Below are positions 1 to 16,086 of a stretch of 64,000 nt of DNA, piece by piece. A program made the position numbers and the translations under genes. The notes below the pieces were generated by a model. That model was given only the letters and a program-made list of their open reading frames with translations. It was not told the DNA's origin and searched no databases. Within the stretch, counting starts at the first letter, position 1; each line of letters starts with the position of its first letter. The DNA is from Pseudoalteromonas phenolica. Lineage in GTDB: Bacteria; Pseudomonadota; Gammaproteobacteria; Enterobacterales; Alteromonadaceae. Where the stretch lies: contig NZ_PNEC01000021.1 in the NCBI RefSeq assembly GCF_005886345.1, positions 186,001 through 250,000 on the forward strand, in the 5' to 3' direction.

Positions 1-179
1 CAAAATGCCACCTTTTTTGCCTTTCTGTAGCCAATGACAGCTTGTAGATGCGCTGCTGAAATTGGCTCAGGCGTTGGGTCTTGCCAATTTGCATCTCCAC
101 GTCCCCAAGCTAAATAAATATCAGTTTGTGCGATTGTTTTAGCGAATAAGGTCCGCCCTGTACGAGTAAGAATTGCCAC
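1..179 (-). CDS. Phage tail-associated protein, partial (runs off left edge)
   Basis: The reading frame starts at GTG (177-179) and stays open to the window edge, so only the first 59 codons are visible. The start is chosen because AAGGAA lies just upstream of it. The protein begins MAILTRTGRTLFAKTIA and continues with a DIYLAWGRGDANWQDP segment. I recall an N-terminus of this type, with an AWGxGDxxW motif, in small proteins encoded next to tail protein I in Mu- and P2-like phages. Its place directly downstream of the I-type gene at 206-1063 agrees with that. The role in the particle is unknown. It belongs to the same minus-strand tail operon. Confidence 0.55.
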   Translation of the reverse strand, partial: MAILTRTGRTLFAKTIAQTDIYLAWGRGDANWQDPTPEPISAAHLQAVIGYRKAKKVAF

Positions 180-205
180 TATGTTTCCTTATTTTTAATA
201 CTAAA

Positions 206-1063
206 TTAGCTTAAACCTTGATGTTTAATGATGACTTGGGGCCCAGAGTGATTGAGCCAGCTTTGTGCTTGCCAGCCACCTGACCAATAGGCTTGCCCAA
301 GTTGAAAGTAACGACTTGAAACTCGATTATGTGATAAAGAGGATGAGTGTTTATACTTAGGCTGAGCACTTAATTTGAATGCCCCAAGTTTTGGATAGAC
401 AGCCATGCTAAACAAACAATTGTCTTTACGCTGATAAGCAACCTTAGCAGAGACAGATGCGTGTGAGCAGCTTTGGTGCTTTCTCAAGCTACTTATCCTG
501 ACCAATTCACCGTTGTTTAATCGATAACGTATACCAGATTGATCACTCAAAAGTGCGCCATAAGTGGCATGCGATAATTTTAATTCTCGAATGTCTAGCT
601 GGTAAGTAATACGAGATAATTTGGCCCGACAAGGATTACTCAGCTCTGCAAGTTGCGTGATTTTCTGAACATCATTTAAATTTGCATAGTGTTGTAAATG
701 AATTTGATATCGGTAAAAGTGACGTTGCGAATTTGACTCCTCAATTTTTGCAGATGAAAAATCTAACCAATTTAGAGCCATTTTAAGGCTTTCTTTGGTG
801 CCCCGTATACGTTGCCAAGTTAAGCCCTCTTGCAAAACATCATCTAAGTTATCTATATAAGAAACCAGAGCGCCCAGGCCATATTCCCAAACAAGCCAAG
901 GCTTTAACTTGTCATGGGGGTGCGATTTCATTCCTTTAAGCAGTGAAATACCCTGCCCTAATATTGGCTCTAAATCTTTATAATTGAGGATGTTACTTTG
1001 TATTTCTGAATGATTAGGGGGTAATAACTGTGCTTTATTATTGCCAGTTAACGCATTAAGCAT
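206..1063 (-). CDS. Phage tail protein I-like baseplate protein, divergent type (cassette I)
   Basis: A 285-residue protein related to the P2 gpI family, which sits at the baseplate wedge next to gpJ and helps attach the tail fibre. The N-terminal half carries LLPPN, LKPWLVWEYGLG and LTWQRIRGTKESL, hallmarks of one gpI subfamily. The two other I proteins in this locus use a different motif set (WDP..CP, SVD.W, KGT.GA), so this copy is not a recent duplicate of them. The C-terminal 150 residues are not recognised and make the protein longer than the roughly 180 residues of classical gpI. The start overlaps the end of the J gene upstream by 16 bases, indicating translational coupling. The family call is fairly secure; the role in a tailocin is inferred from context. 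Confidence 0.75.
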   Translation of the reverse strand: MLNALTGNNKAQLLPPNHSEIQSNILNYKDLEPILGQGISLLKGMKSHPHDKLKPWLVWEYGLGALVSYIDNLDDVLQEGLTWQRIRGTKESLKMALNWLDFSSAKIEESNSQRHFYRYQIHLQHYANLNDVQKITQLAELSNPCRAKLSRITYQLDIRELKLSHATYGALLSDQSGIRYRLNNGELVRISSLRKHQSCSHASVSAKVAYQRKDNCLFSMAVYPKLGAFKLSAQPKYKHSSSLSHNRVSSRYFQLGQAYWSGGWQAQSWLNHSGPQVIIKHQGLS

Positions 1064-1887
1064 AATTTTATTTCTCTTAACTTAGCGTACTGGTTCGACG
1101 CGATATTGACCAATTGACTCGGAGCAAACACCTCAACATGCTTCACCCCTTCTACATGGAGCTGTGCACTGAGCCAACTTGGCGTCATTGCTACACCTAA
1201 CGCAGCTTGATTCAACCATTGCTCTTGTAACTTACCCTCAAGCTGCGTAAATACCCAATCAGGTACTTTATCTTGAAGATATATCTCGGCATGAACATCT
1301 ATAGGTACAGCTTGGGCAAAACTCACTTCTACCTCATCAGTCAGTACTTTAACGCTATCACTCAATACGTGTGACTTGACTTTTTCAAGCTCTGTGTAGG
1401 CATCAACATGTGAATAAAATAAAACAGAGACCCTCACTTTTCCTGGTTCAGGGCTATCGACTTCAACATCTCTTATCGAGTTTGGGGCTGCAGTTAGTGC
1501 TGCATTACGATAATGATCTTTGCTCCCTGCAGTACTAGAAGCCAACGTTTTTTGCCGTATTCTTAGTCTATAGTTGTCATCTTTTTCTTTTTCAGCTCTG
1601 GTTAAGCCATAAAAAGCCCCCAAATGATCTAGATCTTGATGCATGGCAGTTGCAAGTAAGTTCGCAGTGGCTGCTTCGTTTATTCGCTGGCGTAACAGCA
1701 ACTCATAATAGCTTTCAACTTGCATACACACGGCAAGCGGGTCACTCTCTATTTCGAGTGCTTCAGCATACTGTGGGGCAATTTGTCGAAAACGTGATTT
1801 ACGATGCTGATAAATGGTTTCGTAGTCTAATGCTTCAATCACATCAGGCTGAGGTAATGACGATAAATCAAAGTCATGTGATTTCAT
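1048..1887 (-). CDS. Baseplate J-like protein, copy 1
   Basis: A 279-residue member of the Baseplate_J family (P2 gpJ / Mu gp47-like), a wedge component of contractile-tail baseplates. Family landmarks are visible: ESDP near residues 47-50, LLLRQRINEAA at 63-73, LDHLGAFYGL around 86-95, a short RLRIR stretch near 107-111 followed by SSTAGS, and a C-terminal half with DSVKVLTDEVEV. It is the most divergent of the three J proteins here. It is followed, with overlap, by the I-type gene. About 135 bases without a gene separate it from the small gene upstream. Confident as a J-family protein; whether it is assembled into the same particle as the other two J copies is open. Confidence 0.85.
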   Translation of the reverse strand: MKSHDFDLSSLPQPDVIEALDYETIYQHRKSRFRQIAPQYAEALEIESDPLAVCMQVESYYELLLRQRINEAATANLLATAMHQDLDHLGAFYGLTRAEKEKDDNYRLRIRQKTLASSTAGSKDHYRNAALTAAPNSIRDVEVDSPEPGKVRVSVLFYSHVDAYTELEKVKSHVLSDSVKVLTDEVEVSFAQAVPIDVHAEIYLQDKVPDWVFTQLEGKLQEQWLNQAALGVAMTPSWLSAQLHVEGVKHVEVFAPSQLVNIASNQYAKLREIKLCLMR

Positions 1888-2023
1888 GGTATTTCATCTA
1901 ATGATGATTAAAACTAAAAAGGAAGCGCTTATGAACAGCTTAAAATGTAACTAACACCAATCTAAACTGTCACAAGCTAGAGAGTGACGCATTTGTTAAA
2001 AGTGCATCAATATATACTCTTAA

Positions 2024-2389
2024 TTAAGTATTATTAGTCTTGATGATATTGGTTATACCTTGAGCTCGTTGCTCAATATCAGCTTCGACCTTTTCCAATC
2101 CCTTGTGTTCATATGGGAATTCAAACTCGCCATTAGTATGTTTTTGCAACAAACTTCTGAATATTTGAGAAGTATTAAAAGATGCCGCCTTAACCTCATC
2201 TATTGATGACACTTTACTAAGCTCATCTAATAATTTTGCAAACTCAAAAAGCAATAGATGAACGGTGTCAGAGGTTGTTCCTAGGAGAGATTGTATGTCT
2301 CCAACTGAATAAAGTATCTGAGTTCGCTGTTCTTCTTTTAAAGTTGCTGCTACTGAGTTTTTAATCTCATTTTCTAATTGTACTGACAT
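2024..2389 (-). CDS. Small fibre-cassette protein, paralogue of the gene at 6507-6875
   Basis: A 121-residue, mostly helical and acidic protein of no family I can name. It matches the 122-residue protein at 6507-6875 along its length: both share a LLG.TSD..HLLL.E block near residues 35-50, a following L..S....E.....S helix, and FPY..KG near residue 92. Both genes lie immediately downstream of a coiled-coil fibre gene, here with a 7-base gap. The conserved pairing suggests a fibre partner or assembly chaperone, but that is inference from position only. Confidence 0.7.
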   Translation of the reverse strand: MSVQLENEIKNSVAATLKEEQRTQILYSVGDIQSLLGTTSDTVHLLLFEFAKLLDELSKVSSIDEVKAASFNTSQIFRSLLQKHTNGEFEFPYEHKGLEKVEADIEQRAQGITNIIKTNNT

Positions 2390-2396
2390 GGTTCAC

Positions 2397-3173
2397 CTAT
2401 GCTGGGATTCGAGGATAATTGACAACACGATCTAATGAAAAATTGCAATTTCCTCCAAAGGTTAAAATATTCTGCGGCTGATAATTCTGAGGATCAGTAA
2501 CACTGTTAGAGACAACATTTATCAATCTAAAAAATAGTCTACTATACGGGTGTTTACCATCCACCTTGATACAGGGAATGTTGTAAACTCTTGCACCATT
2601 CCACCACCCTCCTACTTTACCTAATGGAATGTTGTTTGATTCAATCACTTCATTAATTTCAGTACTATTTGCTTCAATGTTTGTTAGGACAAATTGCATA
2701 TAAGTTCGACTCCAATCTTCAGTGTACTGTGGAGTTTCATGATAACCTGGTGAATAGGAGTAACCTGAAATTGTATGAACTTTGGTCAAACCACCATGAT
2801 GTGGATATGTGTTCACTCCCCAACCATTAGCACAAGGAACTTGGAGCCATTCTGTTCTTGTTTCATCAGTTGGATCAACCACAAGGCCATGATCTGAAAT
2901 CAAATTATTCTTTGAGAATAGTTGCCTATCATAATAATTAATTCGCATATCAGCATGACTTTCCGCAAAGGTACGAATGGCGTCGGATATACGCGTATCG
3001 GCGGTTGCGACAGCATCTGCTACTGATGATTGCGCGTTACTCAGGGCGTTATTGATGTCGCCCATTTTGCCCACAACAGTGTTGGTCAGTTCATTATTCG
3101 ACGTAACCAAATCACCATTGGTTGTGTGCAGCTCTGAAATTAACTGCTCAAGCGTTTTTGCTTGCGTTGACAT
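2397..3173 (-). CDS. Putative tail-fibre / adhesin protein with N-terminal coiled coil (cassette II)
   Basis: A 258-residue protein. Residues 1 to about 75 are a hydrophilic helical region with heptad character (segments such as LEQLISELHTTNGDL and VSTADTRIS-like repeats), suited to a trimeric stalk. The rest is rich in Tyr, Trp, His, Asn and Gly with alternating hydrophobics, as in beta-structured receptor-binding tips. The stalk resembles that of the 182-residue protein at 6885-7433, while the tips share little, as expected for specificity domains. No signal peptide is present. The assignment as a receptor-binding fibre is inferred from composition and position, not from a recognised domain. 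Confidence 0.6.
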   Translation of the reverse strand: MSTQAKTLEQLISELHTTNGDLVTSNNELTNTVVGKMGDINNALSNAQSSVADAVATADTRISDAIRTFAESHADMRINYYDRQLFSKNNLISDHGLVVDPTDETRTEWLQVPCANGWGVNTYPHHGGLTKVHTISGYSYSPGYHETPQYTEDWSRTYMQFVLTNIEANSTEINEVIESNNIPLGKVGGWWNGARVYNIPCIKVDGKHPYSRLFFRLINVVSNSVTDPQNYQPQNILTFGGNCNFSLDRVVNYPRIPA

Positions 3174-3238
3174 AAGTAGTCCTTTTATTTTTTATTAAAA
3201 GAAGATAAAAATATTTTGAAAAGTGGAGTAATGATCAG

Positions 3239-3994
3239 TTAAAGCTGATAGGTATGAAGTTGTGTTTCAGACATCATTGAAACAAAGCTGCCGTTCAGAA
3301 CGGGAGGTAAAAGTGGTGCGCTGTTTTCACTGCTTTTCAACGCATTAACACTAATAACTAGCGGCGATTTTGCAATTGCCTGCGCATCAAAGTAAGAAGT
3401 CGTTTCATTGACGCTTTTTCCTTTCACTTGCACCATATCAGGCGAGATAGCTAGCGTGGCGACTTCTAAAAACGCTATGGTCAATTTATTCGCCACATTC
3501 GCATGATTAAACACACCAAATAGTGATGAACCCAACGAGTGCTGTGCACTAATCTTGATTGGATACTCAGCAGAGTCACTGGCAATTAGATAATTAAGCT
3601 CTGAATTCACTGCAAATAATCTATCTGCTAGTAGACGGATCTCTTTGTGTATTTCGCCCTTGAGTAAAACATCAAATCTACATTGTTCATCACTCGCAGG
3701 CTGTAATTGAATGACATCATGCCAATCTATAACGACACTTGGCTGCTCCCAACCTGGTAAACTATATGTTTCAAATCTCACATTGCAGTTTGGCAATGTG
3801 ACTTGCGCTATTTGATGAGCATACCCATTGGCTGCAAGAAAAATAACAAGTGACTTTGATTCATTGGTCGCTTTAGCTAACGCAGCACTCACTGAATTTA
3901 AAGGTTCAAGCTCACTCTTTCCATCATGACTGACATCAGCAAACTGAGGATCTGCATCGACAAAAAAGTGCAGCGCCTGCTCAACTTGAGACAT
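3239..3994 (-). CDS. Hypothetical tail-cassette protein, possible fibre component
   Basis: A 251-residue protein I do not recognise. It starts MSQVEQALHFFVDADPQFAD and has an early SVSAALAKA...SLVIFLAANGYAHQ region followed by many short alternating beta-like segments, which would suit a beta-solenoid or jelly-roll fibre domain. It lies between the collar-fibre gene (4021-4575) and the coiled-coil fibre gene (2397-3173). The equivalent place in the other full cassette is held by an unrelated 57-residue gene. No signal peptide or membrane segment is seen. Function unknown; a structural or receptor-binding part of the tail is the most natural guess. Confidence 0.6.
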   Translation of the reverse strand: MSQVEQALHFFVDADPQFADVSHDGKSELEPLNSVSAALAKATNESKSLVIFLAANGYAHQIAQVTLPNCNVRFETYSLPGWEQPSVVIDWHDVIQLQPASDEQCRFDVLLKGEIHKEIRLLADRLFAVNSELNYLIASDSAEYPIKISAQHSLGSSLFGVFNHANVANKLTIAFLEVATLAISPDMVQVKGKSVNETTSYFDAQAIAKSPLVISVNALKSSENSAPLLPPVLNGSFVSMMSETQLHTYQL

Positions 3995-4020
3995 ATTTCA
4001 CCCAGACCTTTATTGTGAGT

Positions 4021-4575
4021 TTAAGCGCCTAAAGCAAGTAGACGATCGTTAAACTCAACCTGACGCAAATTAGATTGCGCTTGCGCCGCGGCCATCTTTG
4101 TTTGGGCAACCGTCATGGCTGCAAACTCGTCTGCATAAAAAATGTTTAGATCTCCGGTTACTTCGAAATCCAAACTGTCTGCAGGCACAGCGGTTAAGAG
4201 TAAGTCAAATCCTTGCACAATTGTCGCGATAGGCGTTTGATAAAAAAGCACATTTTCAGGGTGCGACCATACTGCAAACAAAGTTCTTTGACTCTCATCA
4301 TCGTGGTCGTTTAAGTAAAAACCCACCTCTCTAACTGCATAATTCGCATTGTCTTTAAACGCCGCGGTGACATGAAATTGTCCATTACCTGACACTGTGG
4401 CTCCTTCCACTGCAGAAGTATTCTTTTGACCTTTTAAAGCTGTCATATTTCTGTCAGGTGTGTAACCTTTATCGCCAACAGCAATATGCCCTATTTGGAT
4501 CTTAATGCCTTGCGCTTGAGCACTCACTGCCGCATTGATACCCTTTTGAGTGATCACGGGGGTATATGCATTCAT
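4021..4575 (-). CDS. Phage tail-collar fibre protein, DUF3751 type (cassette II)
   Basis: A 184-residue protein beginning MNAYTPVITQKGINAAVSAQ, the typical opening of the DUF3751 tail-collar fibre family found at the base of P2-like tail fibres. Other family features are the IGHIAVGDKGYTP stretch near residues 29-41, the REVGFYLNDHD segment in the middle, and an LLTAVPADSLDF segment near the C-terminus. It is shorter than most fibre proteins, so it probably forms only the baseplate-proximal collar, with the tip supplied by a downstream gene. It follows the I gene after 9 bases. It pairs with the 232-residue homologue at 7706-8404. Confidence 0.8.
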   Translation of the reverse strand: MNAYTPVITQKGINAAVSAQAQGIKIQIGHIAVGDKGYTPDRNMTALKGQKNTSAVEGATVSGNGQFHVTAAFKDNANYAVREVGFYLNDHDDESQRTLFAVWSHPENVLFYQTPIATIVQGFDLLLTAVPADSLDFEVTGDLNIFYADEFAAMTVAQTKMAAAQAQSNLRQVEFNDRLLALGA

Positions 4576-4584
4576 AAATTTTCC

Positions 4585-5475
4585 TTAAATAATTGTCATT
4601 GAAGTTGATTGCACAACGATATGACTTGCCATACTAGATGCTGAAATCGGACTTGTGCATTGCCCGTAAGGTTCATCATTAAAAAGATGCCGGCTCAGCG
4701 TTTGAAAAAATGCGCCGTTACAGAGATTAATAGACTCTTTAAATTCTGAATTCGATTTATCCTCAAAATAAGGTTTCTCAACATTTGTAGACAAGGCAAG
4801 ATTAGTTAAAAACGTATTACCCTTAAATTCTGCTCGCGCCGCATCACAAAACGTCTCATTACTCATGTTCACGTTTAAAGCAATACTTGATAGCCCTTGT
4901 TTTGCAGTCTCAAACTGAAACTTAGGTATATCTTGCCATGTAATCTGCTGAAGGTTGGTTGTACTTGCCCCACCATAAACCTCAACTTGGTTATGCAAAT
5001 TAACGCCAATTATGAAATCAACTTGTGTTCTTAATGGTTTATGCGCACTGACAACCTGCCATATATGAGCTTGATTTCGTGGCGTGAGAAATGTATCACC
5101 GTCACTCGTTAAATTTACATTAGCAATCGCTGTAAGCTTTGCTGTGTGCGGCACACCACCTGTTTGCCACCATTCTTGCAACTGCACATCGACGTCAAGC
5201 GCATTCAAAGATGCGCGGATTGCACCGACTGTGCCCTTTTTAATATGGCTGGGAACACTTTCAGCGATAACCCGCCGTTTAACTGATTCAGGCCAGTTTT
5301 CATCCCAAGTATCGACACTGAGTGAATCGGCTAACCAAGATAAAAATGTCACTGGGCATGAAAAGGGGTCCCAAAGTCGATGAAGATCGACGGGTATATC
5401 CAGTACTGTTTCGCTTAGTGCGTCTAATGCCTTTACCAAGTCAGCGCCTTGGCACAGTGACGCATTATCAGACAT
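4585..5475 (-). CDS. Phage tail protein I (P2 gpI-like), copy 2, C-terminally extended
   Basis: Baseplate-wedge protein of the P2 gpI family. The first 90 residues carry the family pattern: LWDPFSCPVTFLSWLA, SVDTWDENW and HIKKGTVGAIRASL, then an EWW motif. The remaining 150 or so residues go beyond the usual family length and are rich in Asn, Ser and Thr. I place the start at the ATG at 5475 (MSDNAS...), 8 bases inside the end of the J gene and behind a run of G; an upstream ATG at 5490 is possible and would add five residues. Its closest relative in the window is the I protein at 8435-9349. Confidence 0.8.
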   Translation of the reverse strand: MSDNASLCQGADLVKALDALSETVLDIPVDLHRLWDPFSCPVTFLSWLADSLSVDTWDENWPESVKRRVIAESVPSHIKKGTVGAIRASLNALDVDVQLQEWWQTGGVPHTAKLTAIANVNLTSDGDTFLTPRNQAHIWQVVSAHKPLRTQVDFIIGVNLHNQVEVYGGASTTNLQQITWQDIPKFQFETAKQGLSSIALNVNMSNETFCDAARAEFKGNTFLTNLALSTNVEKPYFEDKSNSEFKESINLCNGAFFQTLSRHLFNDEPYGQCTSPISASSMASHIVVQSTSMTII

Positions 5476-6460
5476 GCTCGCCCCCATCATGTATAGACAG
5501 ATTTAAACAATGTGCAGCTTGATATTGGTTTATCAAAATATCTTGAGTAGGAAGATGAATTTCTGCTCGTTGCACCCCCGCTACATGAAGCGCAGCATGA
5601 AGCGCAGATATTGAAATATCATGTCCTAATTTCGCACGTTCTGTAAAAAACTGATTAACACTCGCTTTAGCATCTTGAATAATTTCAGCTGCATTCATAC
5701 CTGGATAAAAATACAAAGTCGCTTCTAAATTAAACTCAATAATGTCAGCTGAAACCACATTGACCCTATCAGTTAATGGTCTGACGTCATCCCTTTCTAA
5801 ATGAGCTTTTACTTCACTAAGAACAGATTCACTTGCGGCGCCATTTCCTTCATTACTCAAAACGGTTACAACCACATCACCAGGGGCTGGTTTTGATAAA
5901 TTTGCATTTCGTGTGCATGAAAGGAGATGTGTATTCGCAGGTAAATAGCTTTGTATCTCTTCAGGCAGATCGATATATGCAAACTCAGGCGCATCTACAT
6001 GTACGTCATGCACAGCTGGCGATGCTGTAAAAGCATGAAATGTGTATGCACCTGCAGGACCTGCTGTACTGTGACCTTCTAAAGCCAGTTTGATCCTTTG
6101 TCGAAAGCGCTCGTCACTTTCAAAATTTTCTGATGTATTGTCTTCTGAGTGCGACAGCACCGCCGCTCTTTCTACTCCAAACCGGCTGCCTAAGTAGTCC
6201 AATTCTTTTGAACTGGCTTTGGCAAGTAACACGTGTTCCGCACTTTCATTAATTCGCTGCCTTAGGAGCATTTCTCTGTAGGCAAATGCTTCAAGCACTT
6301 TTAATACTGGGTCACTTTCAACTAAAGCGTCGAATTCAGAAAAACGCGATTGAAACTCCGCTAAGACATTTGTGTAAATGTCTTCATAACTGAGCGCTTC
6401 AATGAGGGTTGGAGTAGGAAAACGGCTAAGGTCAATCGCACTAAAATTTGTTAGAGACAT
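5468..6460 (-). CDS. Baseplate J-like protein, copy 2
   Basis: A 330-residue Baseplate_J family protein. Landmarks: ESDPVLKVLEAFAYREMLLR near residues 48-67, LDYLGSRFGV around 87-96, ERFRQRIKLALEGHSTAG around 117-134, and DDVRPLTDRVNV in the C-terminal half. It is about 50 residues longer than the other two J proteins because of an insert around residues 157-200 between the DVHVDAPE and PGDVVVTVL segments. It begins cassette II and overlaps the I gene. The J family is a core wedge protein of contractile tails; three different copies in one locus is the odd point. Confidence 0.88.
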   Translation of the reverse strand: MSLTNFSAIDLSRFPTPTLIEALSYEDIYTNVLAEFQSRFSEFDALVESDPVLKVLEAFAYREMLLRQRINESAEHVLLAKASSKELDYLGSRFGVERAAVLSHSEDNTSENFESDERFRQRIKLALEGHSTAGPAGAYTFHAFTASPAVHDVHVDAPEFAYIDLPEEIQSYLPANTHLLSCTRNANLSKPAPGDVVVTVLSNEGNGAASESVLSEVKAHLERDDVRPLTDRVNVVSADIIEFNLEATLYFYPGMNAAEIIQDAKASVNQFFTERAKLGHDISISALHAALHVAGVQRAEIHLPTQDILINQYQAAHCLNLSIHDGGEHV

Positions 6461-6506
6461 GGTAGACCTCTAAATTGAAGTCACCAACTTGGCGACTTAT
6501 TTAATG

Positions 6507-6875
6507 CTATTTTAGAAGAGTACTCACTTCAGTCGCTCGGTCTAAAGCCTCTTCTATAGAAGCTAGTTTACCTTTAACCTGATATGGAAATACAACTTCT
6601 TCTGACGCTATTTTACTCTCAATATCACCAATTGCAGACTTTAATGAATTAGTTGAAGCCCTCATTTCAGCTAGAGATTGAGCTTGACTAAGTTTATTAA
6701 CAAAAGCACTCAGCTCAGCAAGTAATAAATGACTGATGTCTGACGTGCATCCCAATAAACTGCCTTCATCAGCAACTCGGTTGCTAATTTTGTGTCTTAA
6801 AGTAATTCGAGCCGTCTCTTTAGCAATTTTTGCCTCTATTTCAGGGCTTTGTTCTGTTGCGATTAAATTGTCCAT
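6507..6875 (-). CDS. Small fibre-cassette protein, paralogue of the gene at 2024-2389
   Basis: A 122-residue helical protein without a recognised family. It shares the CTSDISHLLLAEL block, the following LSQAQSLAEMRAS helix and the VVFPYQVKGK segment with the 121-residue protein at 2024-2389. It lies 9 bases downstream of the coiled-coil fibre gene, the same arrangement as in the other cassette. A role in fibre folding, trimerisation or as a minor structural partner is possible; nothing in the sequence decides between these. Confidence 0.7.
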   Translation of the reverse strand: MDNLIATEQSPEIEAKIAKETARITLRHKISNRVADEGSLLGCTSDISHLLLAELSAFVNKLSQAQSLAEMRASTNSLKSAIGDIESKIASEEVVFPYQVKGKLASIEEALDRATEVSTLLK

Positions 6876-6884
6876 CTTAATTCC

Positions 6885-7433
6885 TTAAAGTTCCGCTGCG
6901 GTATTGTTGATAAACTCAATGTCACCTGCACCCAAAACAGTACCATTGCCAACACGAATAGAGTCAGCAGATAAGGTCAGGTAATATTGGTTTGTAAATG
7001 ATAGTCTCAGATATACATGCTGATCAGAACCAACATAAACGATTGGTTCATGTGTGCCCATCGTTTTAGATTGATGTAATCTATTCCCATTTTTGTAACA
7101 ATACCCAGTAAAGACGGCATCTACGATAGCATTCTCACCATAGGCGTACCCTTTTATGTGTATATGGAACATATGGTTATGCGTGTCAATTTTGTATGGC
7201 AATTTCACATGCATGTTTGTTACTCCACTTGTTGAAGTAAAATAATTAGCAATCGCAAACCCACGAGTACCTCTTATGCCTTCACCAATTACATGGTTAT
7301 CTGATAAAGCATTATCAACCCGTTGAAGCATACTCGCTGTACTGGCATCAATTTCAGCGACTTTATTATCCACTGTTGATGTAAGTTGCTCTGACTTTTG
7401 AACCAGTGTCGCGATGTTATTTTCTAACGACAT
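6885..7433 (-). CDS. Putative tail-fibre / adhesin protein with N-terminal coiled coil (cassette III)
   Basis: A 182-residue protein. The first 45 residues form a heptad-rich stalk (LVQKSEQLTSTVDNKVAEID), and the remaining 135 residues form a compact beta-rich domain with many aromatic residues, His and Gly, such as HNHMFHIHIKGYAYG. The stalk resembles the N-terminus of the 258-residue protein at 2397-3173, while the tip differs. The start is supported by AAAGGAG 8 bases upstream. The ribosome site directly follows a terminator-like hairpin (7453-7480), so expression depends on read-through or on a start of transcription not obvious by eye. Assigned as a receptor-binding fibre by position and composition. 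Confidence 0.6.
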   Translation of the reverse strand: MSLENNIATLVQKSEQLTSTVDNKVAEIDASTASMLQRVDNALSDNHVIGEGIRGTRGFAIANYFTSTSGVTNMHVKLPYKIDTHNHMFHIHIKGYAYGENAIVDAVFTGYCYKNGNRLHQSKTMGTHEPIVYVGSDQHVYLRLSFTNQYYLTLSADSIRVGNGTVLGAGDIEFINNTAAEL

Positions 7434-7452
7434 ATATATTCTCCTTTATAAA

Positions 7453-7480
7453 ATAAAAAACCCGCATAACGCGGGCCTCT
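7453..7480 (-). terminator. Terminator-like hairpin inside the tail operon
   Basis: On the minus strand a GC-only 5-bp stem (CCCGC / GCGGG, loop GTTAT) is followed by TTTTTTATTTT, the form of an intrinsic terminator. It lies between the 57-residue gene at 7522-7695 and the fibre gene starting at 7433, with the ribosome site of the latter immediately after the T run. The stem is short, so efficiency is uncertain. Confidence 0.65.
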
Positions 7481-7521
7481 AAAAATTTTTAAATTTGCTA
7501 TAAGATTTCAAGTGTATTGAT

Positions 7522-7695
7522 TTAAGTACTTCTAAAGTCATCTGACGCTAACCGTTGCTCAGAAATGCTTTTGTTATTCTGCATCTTTTGGGCTAAGGTG
7601 GCTTGCTCGTATTGTTGCTTGTACATTTTATAAGCCGCCAGTCCTCTTTTCGCATCGTTATATATAGAGTTATTTGAAGTCTTGCTTTTGTTCAT
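7522..7695 (-). CDS. Hypothetical 57-residue protein of cassette III
   Basis: A short ORF beginning MNKSKTSNNSIYNDAKRGL and ending SDDFRST. It is rich in Lys, Gln and Asn, predicted helical, with no membrane segment or signal peptide. It starts 11 bases downstream of the collar-fibre gene (7706-8404) and ends about 40 bases before the terminator-like hairpin. It holds the position that a 251-residue gene takes in cassette II. Ribosome site weak (GTGAG). The tight spacing and matching strand support a real gene, but the function is unknown. Confidence 0.5.
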   Translation of the reverse strand: MNKSKTSNNSIYNDAKRGLAAYKMYKQQYEQATLAQKMQNNKSISEQRLASDDFRST

Positions 7696-7705
7696 TTATG
7701 GAATC

Positions 7706-8404
7706 TCACAAGTTAACTATGTTTTTTACGTGGCGCGCCATATTGGCAATATGATAGGCTGCATTTGCAGCGAGAAACTCTCTATTTTTTGCATTTGAAA
7801 GTTGTTTTTCAAAACTAAGTTCTTTCTCAAGTTGAGCTTTCGTTTCTTCTGCTTGTTTTTTTAATGCAATTTGTTCAAATTTATTTTCTAAATAACGGTT
7901 CATATTTCCGATTTGCGCTGCTCCCATCTTTGCAAGCTCAGGCGCTATCAGAATATTAAAATCAACCCCTTTATCAATTACCGTGATTGAGTCTGAAGGC
8001 ACACCAGTTAGCACTAAATCAAATGCTAAAAGAAGATCTATATCATTAGATTTATAGGCTATTGGCTGTTCAGAAGAATAAACAGCAAATAAGACATGAT
8101 TTATAACACCATTTACTTCTTCTTCAGCATAGAAACCAATTTCATTAACCCAAAACCCCCCATTTAGAGTTTCTGAGTCATCACGAACTGTTAAATGTAG
8201 TTGCTTGTTGTCCGCAAAATATTCAGAATGGTCAATATCAAGACGATATTTTTCATCGACTAAAGAGGTGGTATTTTCAGTAACTTCGTGTATGCCTGAG
8301 CCCAATCCTACTTTGGTGATCTTTGCTTTTATACTATTTTGTTGCGCCCGAAAAACAGCATTAAGTCCAGCCGTTGTAATAACTGGATGAATCATAGTGC
8401 TCAC
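7706..8404 (-). CDS. Phage tail-collar fibre protein, DUF3751 type (cassette III)
   Basis: A 232-residue protein with the DUF3751 opening (HPVITTAGLNAVFRAQ), KITKVGLGSG near residues 28-37, the WVNEIGFYAEE segment in the middle and LVLTGVPSDSITV later. After about residue 165 it differs from the 184-residue homologue in cassette II and has a Lys/Glu-rich helical tail, probably a coiled coil leading into the next fibre segment. The GTG start at 8404 is chosen because AAGGAG stands 6 bases upstream; an ATG three codons later is less well placed. Likely the baseplate-proximal collar of the fibre. Confidence 0.8.
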   Translation of the reverse strand: MSTMIHPVITTAGLNAVFRAQQNSIKAKITKVGLGSGIHEVTENTTSLVDEKYRLDIDHSEYFADNKQLHLTVRDDSETLNGGFWVNEIGFYAEEEVNGVINHVLFAVYSSEQPIAYKSNDIDLLLAFDLVLTGVPSDSITVIDKGVDFNILIAPELAKMGAAQIGNMNRYLENKFEQIALKKQAEETKAQLEKELSFEKQLSNAKNREFLAANAAYHIANMARHVKNIVNL

Positions 8405-8434
8405 TTTGCACTCCTTGTGTTGTTTAAAATTTTT

Positions 8435-9349
8435 CTAATTTATTTCTCCATATAAACGCATTACACTTAATCTTGAGCGTTTAGCTTGGACTAAATTAAT
8501 TTTCAATTGTGTTGAATTTAAAGAAAGCTTTCTTGTTTTAGCTGTCTGAGTATATTGTCTAAAAATATTAGGAATGACTTTTCGACAGACAAACTTATGC
8601 ATCATCTCATTTTTGAAAGTGACTGATTTTTTTCCCGATGAAATTGCGTATGCTCTAAATGCAGTCATTCTGTATTTAGATAACCCATTAAAAATCCACA
8701 GTTCATTTGAAGCATAACGAGTTTTAGCATGCGGCAAAACTTGAGCATAACTTCTCTTGCTGACCGATTGCTTGGATATTGCACCAGCCAACATTGCTGA
8801 AGACATTTTAACGCCAACTAAAAAATCAAAATGTGCTTTTTGCGGTTTTGTTTGATTTGTAACTCTGTAAATTGCGTCATACAAAGTTTGATCTAAAACA
8901 ATCGACTTACTTGTATATGGTGTTTCATTCGCCCATGCAATAAATATAAATGTATTAGGCTCTCGGCTATGATAAGGAGCAAGATAGACATCATCTACAT
9001 CTTCAAACCATTCAAAGAAATCTATCTGTAAACCCAAAGCTGACAGCGCTTTTTTTACAGCGCCTACCGTTCCCTTATGTTTATGTACTTTCACCGAATT
9101 AGCTATCATTGCTCGTTTGGTTTCTTCAGTCCAAGATTCATCCCAGTCATCGACTGACAGGGACCAAGCAAGCCACGGCAGTAATGTCACAGGGCACCTC
9201 AATGGATCCCACTGATGAGCAATATTCTGCTCAATAACCTCCGAAGAGCTGAACTGCTCAACTGAATTAATCACCGTATTTTCAATTGACTGTGAGATTT
9301 TGACAATCTCATGTTTTTTTTTGTCTATTGTTCTCATATTGCAACTCAC
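8435..9349 (-). CDS. Phage tail protein I (P2 gpI-like), copy 3, C-terminally extended
   Basis: Baseplate-wedge protein of the P2 gpI family. Residues about 44-107 show WDPLRCPVTLLPWLAWSLSV, DDWDESW, HKHKGTVGAVKKALSALG and an EWF motif. After the usual family length there is an extension of about 120 residues rich in Lys, Arg, Ser and Ala, more basic than the extension of copy 2. The GTG start shares the bases GTGA with the stop of the J gene, a translational-coupling overlap; an ATG four codons later is an alternative. With J copy 3 it starts cassette III. Confidence 0.82.
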   Translation of the reverse strand: MSCNMRTIDKKKHEIVKISQSIENTVINSVEQFSSSEVIEQNIAHQWDPLRCPVTLLPWLAWSLSVDDWDESWTEETKRAMIANSVKVHKHKGTVGAVKKALSALGLQIDFFEWFEDVDDVYLAPYHSREPNTFIFIAWANETPYTSKSIVLDQTLYDAIYRVTNQTKPQKAHFDFLVGVKMSSAMLAGAISKQSVSKRSYAQVLPHAKTRYASNELWIFNGLSKYRMTAFRAYAISSGKKSVTFKNEMMHKFVCRKVIPNIFRQYTQTAKTRKLSLNSTQLKINLVQAKRSRLSVMRLYGEIN

Positions 9350-10167
9350 AAGAACGTGATATCGATTGATAATTTAATTGCGGTTTTATCATCCGGTATC
9401 AAATCCTCCGAAGGAGATAGTAATTTTACTTTTCTGACACCTGACTGATGGAGAGCATCAACTACGGCAGAATATGGAATTTCTTTACCAAGCTTGTAAT
9501 GCTCGGCAATAAAAACATCTAATGCCTTGTATATTTCAAGTTTTACTGATTCTTCGGAAGCATGTTTGCTTAAATGGATGGCGGCTTTAATTGTTTGAGT
9601 TTCAACATTAGCCAAGTGTACGAAAACTTGATCTGTAATTGGCCGGATATCTTCACTATTTAACCAAGACTTAACTTTGTCTTTTATCTCTGCAGACATA
9701 TTAATTTGTGAAGCTAAAATATATACATCAACAACTCCTGGTGCTGATGACTCTACAAAAACATCTTTTACTCTTTTATCTGCTTTGAAAGAATGATACT
9801 CGTATGCTCCACTAGTTCCTGCCATGCTATAACTTTCTAGCGACAATGGAATTCTTTTTCTAAACCTCTCTTCATCTTCGTCTAATTCTTTGTAAACCCC
9901 AAAAAGTGCACCTAAATTTTCTAAATCATTCCCGCTCGAATGAGCTAAAAGAACAGATTTAGCAGCATCATTGATACGCTGTCTAATAAGAAGTTCACGA
10001 TAAGCGGCTAGTTCTAATATTTTCACTGCAGGGTCTGATTCAAGTAACGCATAGTCTGGTATCTGTTTGTTAATAGATGACAACAGACTTTCTAATATCG
10101 TATCGAAGTCTAGAGGTTCTATTACATTAGGGGGAGCTAGCTGAGATAATTCTATTGCACTTGTCAT
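9346..10167 (-). CDS. Baseplate J-like protein, copy 3
   Basis: A 273-residue Baseplate_J family protein. Landmarks: ESDPAVKILELAAYRELLIR near residues 43-62, LENLGALFGV around 82-91, ERFRKRIPLSLESYSMAG around 100-117, GAYEYHSF, and EDIRPITDQVFV in the second half. It is the first tail gene after the lysis genes and has a strong ribosome site, GGAGGTTAACT, before its ATG. The classical P2 order has genes V and W before J; no such genes are present between the lysis genes and this one. Confidence 0.88.
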   Translation of the reverse strand: MTSAIELSQLAPPNVIEPLDFDTILESLLSSINKQIPDYALLESDPAVKILELAAYRELLIRQRINDAAKSVLLAHSSGNDLENLGALFGVYKELDEDEERFRKRIPLSLESYSMAGTSGAYEYHSFKADKRVKDVFVESSAPGVVDVYILASQINMSAEIKDKVKSWLNSEDIRPITDQVFVHLANVETQTIKAAIHLSKHASEESVKLEIYKALDVFIAEHYKLGKEIPYSAVVDALHQSGVRKVKLLSPSEDLIPDDKTAIKLSIDITFL

Positions 10168-10245
10168 AGTTAACCTCCTTGATTTATAAAATGATTACAA
10201 AGAAAAATAAGTATAAGTTGACGTAAAGATTTCAATTTTTGTTGT

Positions 10246-10488
10246 TTACTTGTGCTTTGCACTCAAAAGAGCATCCAACTTCTTATCTATTGAATCTAAT
10301 CGCTTTTCTATTCGTTTTTGATCTTCGTTTCTAATCTGTTTTAGATGAGTTAACTCTTGATAATTTGACGTAATTCGTTTGTCCAAATCATTCAAATACA
10401 AAATCCCAGATACAACCAAAGCAATGGTTGTGAGTATATGAGCAAGATTTAACTCCTTTTTCATTTGCCAATTCTCTGGCTGCCTCAC
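10246..10488 (-). CDS. Small one-TM coiled-coil protein of the lysis module
   Basis: An 80-residue protein with a single membrane segment near residues 15-33 (LAHILTTIALVVSGILYL) followed by a charged coiled-coil region ending in repeated Lys/Asp/Leu heptads. The GTG start shares GTGA with the end of the holin gene, and AAAGGAG lies 7 bases upstream. A single N-terminal anchor with a periplasmic coiled coil is the architecture of i-spanins (Rz-like), which would fit its place after holin. No partner outer-membrane lipoprotein is seen, so the spanin idea is only a suggestion. Confidence 0.6.
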   Translation of the reverse strand: MRQPENWQMKKELNLAHILTTIALVVSGILYLNDLDKRITSNYQELTHLKQIRNEDQKRIEKRLDSIDKKLDALLSAKHK

Positions 10489-10880
10489 TTAGCGACTCCT
10501 TTTATTTTTTCGATTGTTCTTAGTCCAGCTAAACCTAGCATGCCTAATGTTAGTTCTAACATCACATTCAAAGGCAATATAGGTGTTCCTTGCTCAGGTA
10601 TTAGCCATTGCAAGATTGGGTTAATAACAAACGCAAACAGAAAGCCTAAGCCACACACCCACATCAGAAATGGTCTGGCACCTGCGACAAATACACTTCG
10701 ATGATTAACTTGTATAGAATTTACTTCGATTTGTAATTCACGTTGTTTGGCCTGTAAGCGTGCTTTTAAAGCTTCTAACTCTAAAAGCTCATCGTCGCTG
10801 GTATAAAGTTCATCGATCATATTACTGATCGCCTTTACTGGCTCGCCTGAACTAGCGAACAATTGGCTCAACCAATTCAC
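10485..10880 (-). CDS. Phage holin, three-TM (GTA_holin_3TM-like)
   Basis: Small membrane protein that would permeabilise the inner membrane so that the endolysin reaches the wall. The N-terminal half is soluble and helical (a Glu/Leu-rich coiled coil near residues 20-60). Hydrophobic segments follow at roughly 68-92 and 104-122, with an R-P pair before the first (GARPFLMWVCGLGF), as in three-TM-type phage holins. I take the GTG at 10880 as start because it overlaps the lysozyme stop (GTGA); a TTG three codons upstream is too close to the GGGAG site. It sits in a lysis cassette with the neighbouring lysozyme. Confidence 0.75.
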   Translation of the reverse strand: MNWLSQLFASSGEPVKAISNMIDELYTSDDELLELEALKARLQAKQRELQIEVNSIQVNHRSVFVAGARPFLMWVCGLGFLFAFVINPILQWLIPEQGTPILPLNVMLELTLGMLGLAGLRTIEKIKGVAK

Positions 10881-11296
10881 TCTTGCCAATCTCCCGTTAA
10901 CATCTGCTGTGCAAGCTCATTAGCACGATTAGGTACTTGACTTGCCCAACGACTATTTAACATCTCGAGCGCTGCATTCTCAAAATCACCTTTTTCAACA
11001 TGGGCAATCATTTTCTTAAACTTCATCAGACCTTGTATGCCTAGGTTGAAACCCATATTTGTTAATACAGCTACCCTTGCTTCATTACAGCAGTCAGTAT
11101 CAATTCGTCTTTTCACTCCAATTAAAGCATTTTCAATGTCTACCGATAATAAATGCTCTGCTTCATCTTCATCTAAACCAACATCATCTAGATTTCGACC
11201 GTACCCAACTGTTAATTTTCCTGCAGAGCAGTAATACGGATAGCGACGAAACCCTTCATGCCGCTTAATTTGCTCAACTGTATTCATAATCGACAT
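10877..11296 (-). CDS. Endolysin, GH24 lysozyme (T4-lysozyme-like)
   Basis: Muramidase that cleaves peptidoglycan for release of particles. A 139-residue single domain without a signal peptide, so it depends on the holin. The catalytic region reads HEGFRRYPYYCSAGKLTVGY: Glu14 is the general acid and Thr29 matches the T4 catalytic Thr. The T4 Asp position is Cys23, a replacement I recall in other phage GH24 enzymes. Later segments (LTNMGFNLG, MLNSRWASQVPNRANELAQQ) match the family C-terminal lobe. The ATG at 11296 has AAGGA six bases upstream; a nearby overlapping ATG is out of frame. Confidence 0.85.
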   Translation of the reverse strand: MSIMNTVEQIKRHEGFRRYPYYCSAGKLTVGYGRNLDDVGLDEDEAEHLLSVDIENALIGVKRRIDTDCCNEARVAVLTNMGFNLGIQGLMKFKKMIAHVEKGDFENAALEMLNSRWASQVPNRANELAQQMLTGDWQE

Positions 11297-11307
11297 ACAT
11301 TTTCCTT

Positions 11308-11670
11308 TTAAGCTTCTGTAAGTTCTAACAATAGTGCGTTTTCAGCTTTAAACAGCCAAAACTCTGCTGAACGCTTCGTCTCAAAGCCTAATTGCTTTGC
11401 TGAAATCGCTAAACTGCCTTCTACTAAGTATTGCGCTCTAATTGCTCTAATACATTCGGGCCTTAACTTTGAAATTAGGGTATCAATTTGTTCTATTTCA
11501 TGTGGCACATGCATCATATCGCTAGTAGAGAAATTACTTTTTACTGCCCCAATTTGTTCGGTAATCGCCTGACGACTAAAACCTTTACCCAACTCTCTTT
11601 GACGCCAAAACTTACCCCAACGTCTCAATATAGCTCGGATTTTCTTAATGGTTACTGGCGTCACAATCAT
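11308..11670 (-). CDS. Candidate late antiterminator / sigma-region-4-like regulator (Q-like)
   Basis: A 120-residue basic protein. The C-terminal half (IDTLISKLRPECIRAIRAQ, then a short linker and SAKQLGFETKRSAEFWLFKA) has the layout of sigma region 4-like HTH domains seen in phage antitermination proteins of the Q/ArpU/RinA kind. Its position at the head of the lysis-tail operon, just after a regulator, fits control of late transcription. AGGAAA precedes the ATG by about 6 bases. It overlaps the regulator gene by 26 bases. The family call is from motif shape only, and the direction of control is inferred. Confidence 0.5.
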   Translation of the reverse strand: MIVTPVTIKKIRAILRRWGKFWRQRELGKGFSRQAITEQIGAVKSNFSTSDMMHVPHEIEQIDTLISKLRPECIRAIRAQYLVEGSLAISAKQLGFETKRSAEFWLFKAENALLLELTEA

Positions 11671-11920
11671 TGATTTTTCCTATTACTTCTAAGATATCCA
11701 ATAAATACACATCTTCAACAAGTCCAACTACATCGTTCCACCTTGGACTGTATTCTCTATTTTCCCAACGCCTTAATGTCCTTTCTTCAATACCATAATT
11801 TGCAGCAGATTCCGCCTGTGTATAACCACGTAATCGTCTTGCAAACCTGAGAATTTCAGAGCCTAAAGGCGCTTTTTTTTGTTTGTATAATCTTGCTTTA
11901 GAATTAGCTACCTGCATCAT
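11645..11920 (-). CDS. HTH (XRE-type) regulator of the tail locus
   Basis: A basic protein with a helix-turn-helix: LRFARRLRGYTQAESAANYG followed by IEERTLRRWENREYSPRW. The pattern 'YTQAESA...ERTLRRWENRE' is that of XRE-family DNA-binding domains. I place the start at the ATG pair 11917-11920 because AAGGAAAGG lies directly before it. A longer reading from a TTG at 11992 lacks a ribosome site and adds an unlikely Cys-containing N-terminus. It is the first gene of the minus-strand locus, so it is the likely switch of tailocin production; activator or repressor cannot be told. Confidence 0.7.
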   Translation of the reverse strand: MMQVANSKARLYKQKKAPLGSEILRFARRLRGYTQAESAANYGIEERTLRRWENREYSPRWNDVVGLVEDVYLLDILEVIGKINDCDASNH

Positions 11921-11992
11921 CCCTTTCCTTAGTTGCATGAATGGGTTGTTTTCTGTGCAGCGATAGGTGCTAGTTAGTCTTACGTTCGACAA

Positions 11993-12487
11993 ATAAATCC
12001 TTTATAAGTGTTTTGACTTACTACTTTCTTCCAATCAAATACCTACACAATAAAGACAACATCATTTAGCTTGACATGGACTCGGCAAACATTAACAAAT
12101 AAATTTATGTAACAAGGTAAGTTCGTAACTTTGCTGAGCTTAGGGATATAATACTGATTTTTAGGACATCAAACAGGTCAAAAATGACCTTATATCAATA
12201 AGTAACCTTTTTTAATAATACAAATTACTTAAAGTATTTATTTAGGGACAGACTATAAGATGTGTTTTCCATTTGTATCTTTTTTATAAACACTTTTATG
12301 AAACTAGAATCTAATATTTAGAATAATTCATCTTGAATTTCAGCAAAATATCACATCAGGCCTAAATTATTTAAACCAAGCTAAAAAGTATAAATATAAG
12401 TACTCAAAATGCTTCAACTCATATATTTGCATCATAGTGTTAATTCTTGATAATGCGCCAAATAGTTAGAGTAAATACGAGCATAAA
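11993..12487. other. Spacer between tail locus and EamA gene
   Basis: About 500 AT-rich bases between divergent genes. No ORF with a credible start was found on either strand. It must hold the promoters of the tail locus (minus) and probably of the EamA gene (plus). One perfect palindrome (12175-12190) is listed separately. No LexA-type CTG-N10-CAG box was found by eye. Confidence 0.6.
12175..12190. promoter_or_regulatory. Candidate operator palindrome upstream of the tail locus
   Basis: AGGTCA-AAAA-TGACCT, a perfect 6-bp inverted repeat with a 4-bp spacer, about 255 bases upstream of the HTH regulator start. It could be a binding site for that regulator or for a host factor. No T run follows on either strand, so it is not a terminator. 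Confidence 0.35.
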
Positions 12488-13375
12488 ATGGGAATCGGTG
12501 AAATTGCGGCAATCAGTGCAGCCATAGTCTGGGCGTCATCGACAATTATATATAAGCGTTTTAGTCATCATCTGTCGCCACTACAATTAAACGTCAGTAA
12601 AGGCATAATTGCTTGTGCACTGATGTTATTAATCTTGCTAATTATGCCTTCCAGCCCTTTCCCTCAATTAGCCAGCTCTTGGGCTTGGCTTATTGTCAGC
12701 GGCATTTTGGGTATTGCTATTGGCGATAGCGCCTATTTTGCAGCCCTCAGAAATATTGGCCCTGCACGAACTCTGGTCATTGAATCTCTCGCGCCAGCCA
12801 TTGCAGGTGTACTAAATATTGTATTGCTTGGCGTGTGGCTCAACAGCCTCGCTTGGTTAGGCATTTTCATCACCACAATGGGTGTACTAATAGCAATTAA
12901 ACCTAAACACCCGTTACCTAGTGTTGAACAGAGCATTTACATCAAAGGGGTTGCGTTCGCACTCATCGCAGCAACTTGCCAAGCTGCAGGCATGGTGATG
13001 TCAAAAGGAGTGATGAACGCAGAGCAAATAGGAAGCTTATGGGCCGCCTTTATTCGCTTATTTTCAGGCACGCTAGCGGTCGCTTGTGTCGTTGCCGTAT
13101 TAAAAGACCAACATTTAAAGCAAGCCATCACTTTACAGGGAATTAGCCAAAAGCATTGGCTTTTTGCCGCTGTATTCTTTGGCACCTTTATCGGCTTATG
13201 GCTACAGCTTATTTCAGTCAAACATACCGATCCGGCCATCGCACAAACTATCTTCGCAACCGCCCCACTGATGGTGATGACCATTGGTGCCCTGCGCAAA
13301 GAACCCATAACAAAAAATATGATATTGGGTGGGTTAATTGCTTTTTCTGGTGTGGCACTATTAGTTTTGAGCTAA
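12488..13375 (+). CDS. EamA/DMT-superfamily transporter
   Basis: A 295-residue inner-membrane protein with ten hydrophobic segments arranged as two five-helix EamA repeats. The first repeat runs from about residue 1 to 135 and ends at the IAIKPKHPL loop; the second runs from about 148 to 295. Segments such as SAAIVWASSTIIYKRF and GIAIGDSAYFAALRNIGPAR are typical of the drug/metabolite transporter superfamily. The substrate cannot be told. The ribosome site before the ATG is weak (ACGAG). It is a single gene between the tail locus and ettA, and marks the return to ordinary chromosomal genes. Confidence 0.85.
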   Translation: MGIGEIAAISAAIVWASSTIIYKRFSHHLSPLQLNVSKGIIACALMLLILLIMPSSPFPQLASSWAWLIVSGILGIAIGDSAYFAALRNIGPARTLVIESLAPAIAGVLNIVLLGVWLNSLAWLGIFITTMGVLIAIKPKHPLPSVEQSIYIKGVAFALIAATCQAAGMVMSKGVMNAEQIGSLWAAFIRLFSGTLAVACVVAVLKDQHLKQAITLQGISQKHWLFAAVFFGTFIGLWLQLISVKHTDPAIAQTIFATAPLMVMTIGALRKEPITKNMILGGLIAFSGVALLVLS

Positions 13376-15150: not shown

Positions 15151-15180
15151 TTGTTAGTTATTTTTTAAGCTATTGATTTA

Positions 15181-15209
15181 AAAAGCCCTGCATATGCAGG
15201 GCTTTTTTT
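15181..15209 (+). terminator. Rho-independent terminator after ettA
   Basis: AGCCCTGCATATGCAGGGCT is a perfect 20-base palindrome flanked by AAA on the left and T7 on the right. It lies 30 bases after the ettA stop. Confidence 0.9.
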
Positions 15210-15272
15210 ACACTGGAGTCTAAGTGTATTACTATCTAGGCTTGAAATAGACAGAATTATCAGAGGATCACG

Positions 15273-15638
15273 ATGGAAGAGCGTAGACGTTTTACACGTA
15301 TCTTATTTTCAAATCCGGCAACTTTAATGACCGCCAGTGGTGATTATAACTGCCAAGTACTTGACCTCTCACTCAAAGGTGCGCTGATCACTTTACCTGT
15401 CGGCTATGTGCCATTACAAGGTGAAGCCGCAAATCTTAAGTTCCATTTACCTGACAGCGATGTGCTCATTTCAATGGAAATAGAAGTACGTCATGTCGAA
15501 ACTGATTATTTAGGTTTACACTGCAATCAAATTGATCTTGAAAGTGTTACCCATTTAAAACGTTTAATTGAACTCAATGTTGGCGATGACACTGTATTAA
15601 ACCGTGAGATTGAACAACTGGCTTACATCAGAGCTTAA
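15273..15638 (+). CDS. PilZ-domain protein (c-di-GMP binding)
   Basis: A 121-residue single-domain PilZ protein. The two c-di-GMP contact motifs are visible: RRRFTR at residues 4-9 (RxxxR type) and DLSLKGA near 30-36 (D/NxSxxG). The rest fits the six-strand PilZ barrel with a C-terminal helix. No other domain and no membrane segment, so it acts as a cytosolic receptor through an unknown partner. It is followed by the DUF350-DUF1190-GSP-synthetase genes and may be transcribed with them (36-base gap). Confidence 0.88.
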   Translation: MEERRRFTRILFSNPATLMTASGDYNCQVLDLSLKGALITLPVGYVPLQGEAANLKFHLPDSDVLISMEIEVRHVETDYLGLHCNQIDLESVTHLKRLIELNVGDDTVLNREIEQLAYIRA

Positions 15639-15673
15639 ATAAACTATTCAAAGAATTATAAGAAGAGATAAAA

Positions 15674-16078: not shown

Positions 16079-16086
16079 GAGGCGTT

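Follow-up and report, generated by a model that had tools for sequence, protein, structure and literature searches.

Four baseplate wedge cassettes on one tail core in a predicted R-type tailocin of Pseudoalteromonas phenolica

Genes of the tailocin locus

The window analysed here is a stretch of 64,000 nucleotides from Pseudoalteromonas phenolica (contig C80:186001-250000 of its genome, NZ_PNEC01000021.1). Its first part belongs to a putative tailocin, in which an earlier note, made from the letters alone, had seen three Baseplate_J (J) and three Tail_P2_I (I) genes on one strand. All six lie on the minus strand and score above the Pfam curated cut-offs, Table 1. The sequence to the left of the window (L008), where the note expected sheath and tube genes, was read for open reading frames (ORFs) and Pfam matches. 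It holds these genes in a single core, and it also holds a fourth J-I set (J4, L008:12979-13872; I4, L008:11892-12986), whose J is 6-7 kb away from the start of the window.

In the direction of transcription the locus starts with a helix-turn-helix regulator, a 120-residue gene, a lysozyme, a holin and an 80-residue gene. Four cassettes of J, I, collar-fibre (C) and fibre (F) genes follow, three of them with a fibre partner (P): cassette I (J1, I1, C1, a 57-residue gene, F1, P1), cassette II (J2, I2, C2, a 251-residue gene, F2, P2), cassette III (J3, I3, C3, DUF4815, genes of 396 and 94 residues, F3, P3) and cassette IV (J4, I4, C4, F4, an 88-residue gene). After I3, cassette III lies mostly left of the window, and its genes there are the collar gene, DUF4815 and genes of 396, 94, 492 and 142 residues. 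Cassette IV is followed by a 187-residue gene, spike V, PAAR, gp25, sheath, tube, E, tape measure, U and D, and beyond this tail core lie metA and then metH. The four wedge-plus-fibre cassettes have a single lysis block and a single P2-like tail core between them. Two of the cassettes had been described as parallel, and they are: each has a collar fibre (PF12571), a gene of 57 or 251 residues, a coiled-coil fibre and a partner of 122 or 121 residues. The partners P1 and P2 are 34% identical.

Table 1. Features of the locus within the window (positions are those of the window).
Feature	Position	Strand	Basis
Putative regulator, helix-turn-helix	11645..11992	-	weak helix-turn-helix matches below Pfam cut-offs
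120-residue gene adjoining lysis block	11308..11670	-	phrog_27007, E 3e-49; same position in many arrays
Phage lysozyme	10877..11296	-	PF00959
Holin, three transmembrane segments	10485..10889	-	PF11351
80-residue gene, weakly Rz-like	10246..10488	-	phrog_24782; weak phrog_7686
J1, slot 1 wedge protein (Tri1/PA0618-like)	9346..10167	-	PF04865 1.9e-18
I1, slot 1 wedge protein (Tri2/PA0619-like)	8435..9349	-	PF09684 1.6e-32
C1, slot 1 collar-fibre gene	7706..8404	-	PF12571 1.1e-7
57-residue gene, cassette I	7522..7695	-	ORF only; no Pfam match
Intrinsic-terminator-like hairpin ahead of fibre 1	7456..7480	-	strongest in window
F1, slot 1 fibre	6885..7433	-	phrog_8748 N-terminus; fibre-zone protein of slot 1
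P1, helical partner of fibre 1	6507..6875	-	sequence comparison and helical model, predicted local distance difference test (pLDDT) 78
J2, slot 2 wedge protein	5468..6460	-	PF04865 1.5e-25
I2, slot 2 wedge protein	4585..5490	-	PF09684 9.6e-34
C2, slot 2 collar-fibre gene	4021..4575	-	PF12571 2.4e-7
251-residue gene, cassette II	3239..3994	-	no Pfam match; relatives of 304-307 residues in six P. luteoviolacea-type loci
F2, slot 2 fibre: helix 8-74, then jelly-roll-like tip	2397..3173	-	model pLDDT 88
P2, helical partner of fibre 2	2024..2389	-	sequence comparison
J3, slot 3 wedge protein, separate phage origin	1048..1887	-	PF04865 2.8e-14
I3, slot 3, divergent Tail_P2_I protein	206..1063	-	PF09684 2.1e-7
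C3 start; remainder of C3, cassettes III and IV and tail core left of window (L008)	1..179	-	

According to Pfam, the core tail genes of the locus (hub, spike, PAAR, gp25, sheath, tube and tape measure) are single; the hub gene, truncated by the edge of the locus, scores under the Pfam cut-off, and the tape measure (1248 residues) has no significant Pfam match and was named from its place and length. The whole genome contains four J, four I and one sheath match, with all J and I in this locus. No P2 capsid (PF05125) or portal (PF04860) was found in the whole genome, in which terminase was not searched for. Aligned together, the four J's match PA0618 of the R2 pyocin with E 1.7e-89, and the I alignment matches PA0619 with 9e-20. 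Contractile tail genes, an own lysozyme and holin and a genome in which no capsid or portal is found are what is expected of an R-type tailocin. Such a tailocin has one wedge set, as in the R2 pyocin, and we term the locus an R-type tailocin variant because it has four.

Slots, distribution and origin of the J genes

The J's are well separated by their slot in the array. A tree of 79 J's was built with 17 array genomes and four outside J's. Its clades J1, J2, J3 and J4+J5 have supports of 99, 98, 100 and 99, and within the last clade the support is 100 for J5 and 90 for J4. All between-genome pairs that are at least 50% identical belong to the same slot for J (1763 same, 0 different), I (708 and 0) and C (1820 and 0), and among the fibre-zone proteins 2319 such pairs are of the same slot and 84 of different slots. 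These counts are not independent, as many genomes are close relatives, and G061 and G021, in which a broken J2 shifts the slot borders, were excluded from them and from the N-terminal counts below.

The ratio of nonsynonymous to synonymous substitution rates (dN/dS) was taken for the J, I and C genes of the first four slots in eight genome pairs, and it is at most 0.25 in all cases with unsaturated dS. Many of the dS values are saturated, and C1 of G009-G080a, where wrong genes were paired in the absence of a slot 1, is not counted. Between G032 and G104, for example, J1-J4 have dN of 0.02-0.06 and dS of 0.64-1.00. The ratios point to purifying selection on the J, I and collar genes in slots 1-4, and none of these genes resembles a decaying relic.

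The J model matches 43 of 108 Pseudoalteromonas genomes, each with three to seven matches and never one or two. Three matches are found in two genomes, four in 25, five in 14, six in one, which has a split J2, and seven in one, which has some of them on other contigs; the number of cassettes does vary across the genus, as the earlier note had proposed to examine. The carriers include P. luteoviolacea (including HI1), P. rubra, P. piscicida, P. flavipulchra, P. aurantia and P. denitrificans. Arrays were retrieved from 39 of the 43 genomes (not G025, G026, G029 and G083) as 40 pieces, of which 34 show both end slots and six are cut. Among these 34 the order is J1-J2-J3-J4 in 19, J1-J2-J3-J5-J4 in five, J1-J2-J5-J3-J4 in five and J1-J5-J3-J4 in three, one of them with a J2 remnant; one further piece is without J3 and one has a split J2. 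J5 is thus present in 13 of the 34 pieces, and three arrays are without a full J2. The first J is J1 in 39 of 39 pieces with the lysis block visible, and the last is J4 in 33 of 33 with the core visible. An EamA gene lies on the upstream side of the array in our own locus (G000), and on the downstream side in ten other pieces. Some species have genes of about 900-1900 residues in slots 2, 3 and 5 (arrays G009, G012, G021, G107 and G085), and in arrays with such very large genes the slots alone can exceed 45 kb.

Outside the genus we compared samples of the order, class and phylum, scoring the best 6-8 candidates per genome in the order and phylum samples. In the order, 45 of 295 genomes have a J match, including our own and G012 of the same genus, and among the remaining genomes the only two full J matches less than 60 kb apart are those of G129, 37 kb apart. 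We rejected the latter as a second array, as they belong to two separate prophages with J's 95% identical and an own gp25 and spike each. In the class sample 11 of 369 genomes match, including our own, and the sole other genome with two matches has them on different contigs. The phylum sample gave 45 matching genomes of 398, including our own, and no clustered J pair beyond our own among the candidates scored. Among the matching phage records (J1 381, J2 376, J3 344, J4 375) the number of J places equals the number of records for each slot, i.e. no record has two.

Several J's in proximity were seen in a few other sequences. Thalassomonas sp. RHCl1 (L196) has four within 13 kb, including J3- and J4-type members, Pseudomonas rhizoryzae has three in 11 kb and an uncultured Pseudomonas two in 5 kb (L201, L189), and the viral contigs L237, L238 and L240 have two each. 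The multi-J arrangement is not limited to one genus, yet it is rare in the samples. The IMG/VR viral contigs L206-L213 and L227 show J1 and then J2 or J5 at array-like spacing, and are probably tailocins of this kind that were taken for viruses.

Between slots, the J's share 30-33% identity by BLAST, and their identity to J1 is 32-38% in the MAFFT alignment. The window part of the locus contains no long DNA repeat. In a first tree with four outside J's the array slots formed one clade; with 24 single-J rows they did not. A single clade for all array J's was rejected by the approximately unbiased (AU) test (p 0.0067), while one clade was not rejected without J3 (p 0.078) or for J1 and J2 alone (p 0.37); the groups were named after the tree had been seen, which weakens the test. 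On the identities, the missing repeat, the tree and the AU test we rejected a recent tandem duplication, and on the latter two a single origin of all J's. At least cassette III was recruited separately, because one clade is rejected with J3 and not without it. Only the separateness of J3 is firmly tested in this way, and for the other slots a separate origin leans on the best phage relatives. The closest phage J's are 40-45% identical and come from a different phage for each slot: Escherichia ep3-like for J1, Zymomonas and Bacillus pumilus phages for J2, Acidithiobacillus AcaML1 for J3 (also Wolbachia WO, 38%) and Vibrio MAR, VP585 and VHML for J4.

The earlier note had taken the locus as an array of duplicated, alternative baseplate-plus-fibre modules. 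The modules hold, given several wedge-plus-fibre sets on one core, the selection and the natural loss and gain of single modules; plain duplication is not supported.

Fibre N-termini, ring composition and expression

The fibres were compared as 254 fibre-zone proteins of 160-520 residues, with the first 60 residues as the N-terminus and a match at 30 bits or more. For 205 of them, the N-terminus matches a protein from another genome with a tip that is not related, and in 199 of these 205 cases the top match of this kind comes from the same slot (slots 1-5: 75/75, 39/41, 33/36, 45/45 and 7/8). Counted by pairs, 3025 of 5185 same-slot pairs match and 655 of 24249 different-slot pairs.

One tip family is found on more than one type of N-terminus. 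This family, that of F2, is in slot 2 of most arrays having it, but in G002 and G085 it is in slot 4, on slot-4-type N-termini, and in G014 and G070 in slot 1, on slot-1-type N-termini. In slot 4 none of the 41 usual fibres, labelled F4, is followed by a P-type partner, and both F2-type fibres are. Related partners are usual in slot 1, where joint travel of the F2 tip and its partner is suggested by the best label only. The F2 model has no PDB match at E 0.001. These patterns suggest that the fibre N-terminus binds the wedge or collar of its own slot. If it is truly a socket key, the arrays would hold naturally occurring, orthogonal connectors by which receptor binders are joined to contractile machines.

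For the wedge we used the frame of phage XM1, transferred to the locus by homology. According to the description of that phage (PMC10457771), a wedge has two J-like proteins and one I-like protein, six wedges make the ring, the C-terminal domain of J links adjacent wedges and the spike is attached to the I-like protein. Solved relatives in general have this build of wedge and ring, with either a fibre or a spike attached to I. We propose that one P2-like chassis and four different baseplate wedges would build an R-type tailocin, in which each J-I pair would act as a socket that comes with a collar protein and a fibre for it alone. The N-terminus of the fibre would be the key to its socket, and the tips would be swapped among strains, at times also from one slot to another. 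At least some of the sockets were drawn from different phages. The cassettes would most likely be co-produced, each ring would consist mainly of a single wedge type, and on lysis a cell would release several tailocin kinds with different target ranges. We give about even chances to a single P2-like chassis that serves several orthogonal wedge-fibre modules and yields several particle types. The co-production, the homotypic rings, the killing activity and the target range of the particles are predictions from sequence.

A number of observations speak against this proposal. No N-terminal match was found for 49 of the 254 fibre-zone proteins, and six of the 205 have their best match in another slot. 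By pairs, the same-slot match rate is 97% in slot 1 and 95% in slot 4, and 16%, 13% and 2% in slots 2, 3 and 5; on this measure the key is clear in slots 1 and 4 and not in the other three. A slot-2 protein of G085 has both its N-terminal and its best tip matches in slot 3, and the slot-2 fibre of G070, which bears a tip of slot 1, cannot be assigned clearly. Slots 3 and 5, with their unusual large genes, may do something else. The constant places of J1 and J4 at the two ends might mean that the two are needed together. J1-J2, J3-J4 and J1-J5 are slightly more alike within a genome than between genomes when all columns are used, a weak hint at contact, and the other seven slot pairs are not. 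Finally, one simple transcript does not fit well with the terminator-like hairpins, which lie within cassettes I and III and ahead of J4 and the tape measure.

The likeness within genomes bears on a possibility that we hold to be rather unlikely, though the strongest of the alternatives, namely that wedges of several slots enter one six-wedge ring, giving a particle with several fibres and broad or cooperative binding. All wedges must dock on the single core, and slot-specific keys are what the placing of fibres in a mixed ring needs. However, the part of J that joins wedges in phage XM1 is the least conserved between slots: identities in the C-terminal third are 23-35% from slot to slot and 52-62% inside a slot, compared with 30-45% and 54-70% for the N-terminal core. 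The divergence leans weakly to rings of one wedge type, since the C-terminal part is the fastest-changing within slots too. Different phage origins would make ring compatibility less likely, and general co-evolution of the J's within genomes was not seen; as a sign of mixed rings it was rejected, with nothing consistent in 10 slot pairs and 4 column sets, relatedness included. We give the same rather low odds to a baseplate whose orthogonal sockets stem from different phages and have a fibre key each, with several different receptor-binding fibres displayed together on one particle. The array makes it testable whether contractile baseplates can be mosaic. An obligate heterotypic or multi-tier baseplate, whose wedge types have different structural jobs, would explain why no J-matching genome of the genus has just one or two matches and why J1 is always first and J4 last where the ends are visible. 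We judge it very unlikely, given that slots are lost singly (three arrays are without a full J2, one is without J3 and one has a split J2), that J5 is found in a minority of the pieces and that every cassette is a complete wedge-collar-fibre set.

The cassettes could also be separate transcription units, from which different particles are made under different conditions. Of the pieces, 28 of 39 have terminator-like hairpins in cassette I and 25 of 34 have them in cassette III; they also occur in the last gap ahead of J4 in 19 of 35 and ahead of the tape measure in 23 of 28, with few elsewhere. In our locus two of them (L008:14048-14083 and 13894-13920) are in the 503-nt gap ahead of J4. The strict gap scan finds almost no hairpins after block shuffling, while a looser scan of window positions 1-12500 gives 10 against a shuffled mean of 8.6. 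The hairpins could allow differential expression of the cassettes, but they may merely tune dosage or be read through, and promoter-like matches are not enriched in the window part (28, compared with 37 after shuffling). Inverted repeats among the cassettes are chance-like only and no recombinase was found among the locus genes scanned, i.e. the inverted repeats and invertase of an invertible-fibre tailocin were not seen, and the switching that the earlier note had considered finds no such basis here. A regulated choice of this kind seems unlikely to us. As for an ordinary prophage or tandem prophage relics, the tail genes and the lysis block do stand in phage-like order. Against this, searches of the whole genome, which covered P2 capsid and portal but not terminase, found neither of the two and a single sheath match, dN/dS is low in slots 1-4, and the flanks are metA-metH and EamA, with metA also downstream in 18 of 39 other array pieces. 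The true tandem prophages of G129 form a contrast, with nearly identical J's and a gp25 and spike for each. Such relics, which the earlier note had named as its possible undoing, are extremely improbable, and from its genes we regard the locus as a real, conserved R-type tailocin with a multiplied baseplate wedge and not a degraded prophage.

Comparison with known systems

The R2 pyocin of Pseudomonas aeruginosa resembles the locus in that Tri1 and Tri2 match J and I and in its contractile P2-like tail, holin, lysozyme and lack of capsid and portal. It has one wedge and fibre set, whereas the locus has four, together with a PAAR gene and a DUF4815 cassette. The PAAR-motif gene is located between spike and gp25 (L008:8292-8597), and in some arrays (G044, G045, G072 and G107) a PAAR-like ORF is not labelled. 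R-tailocins are said in a review to be without PAAR domains (PMC10598620).

According to a second review (PMC12090994), one fibre gene per tailocin cluster is typical, and the review asks why there are not more targets. Clusters with several fibre genes are already known (PMC10598620, PMC12090994). In Pseudomonas chlororaphis three fibre genes give three particle types, and one cluster has two tailocins with one common lysis cassette (PMC12090994). The likeness to our locus is several specificities in one locus with a common lysis block, but as the review describes it, fibre genes or whole tailocins are multiplied and the wedge is not mentioned, while here it is the wedge that is multiplied, on a single core. 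Erwinia carotovora has a tailocin with an invertible tail fibre (PMC12090994), again alternative fibres on one tail, in contrast to the multiplied wedges found here without an invertible repeat or recombinase.

Pseudoalteromonas luteoviolacea HI1 makes metamorphosis-associated contractile structures (MACs), a contractile tail-like machine (PMC6748791), and in PMC10286705 'tailocin' in Pseudoalteromonas means the MAC. The same strain also carries an array. The array core is P2-like, and G032, in which J3 stands at the contig position that it has in HI1, has a second, divergent sheath match below the cut-off on another contig than the array sheath; presumably it is the MAC sheath. The loci of Pseudomonas rhizoryzae and the uncultured Pseudomonas (L201, L189; L237, L238, L240) share with the array more than one J-I-fibre set and one sheath gene behind them where the contig reaches. 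They have two or three sets, compared with four here. Their J's fall inside no array slot's clade, and for that reason we take these multi-cassette loci as an independent case.

In the literature searched, mostly without subscription papers, we came across no account of a single core that carries several J-I sets. In the arrays the baseplate wedge itself is a multiplied and presumably interchangeable part that is kept across the genus, and the conservation across many related species suggests that one killing machine could be fitted to several kinds of target. Some array genes (window 10246-11670; L008:9419-9982 and 14376-16294) match PHROG families of near-equal length and without an assigned function (27007, 24782, 23383, 24331 and 26358), which were perhaps built from such arrays.

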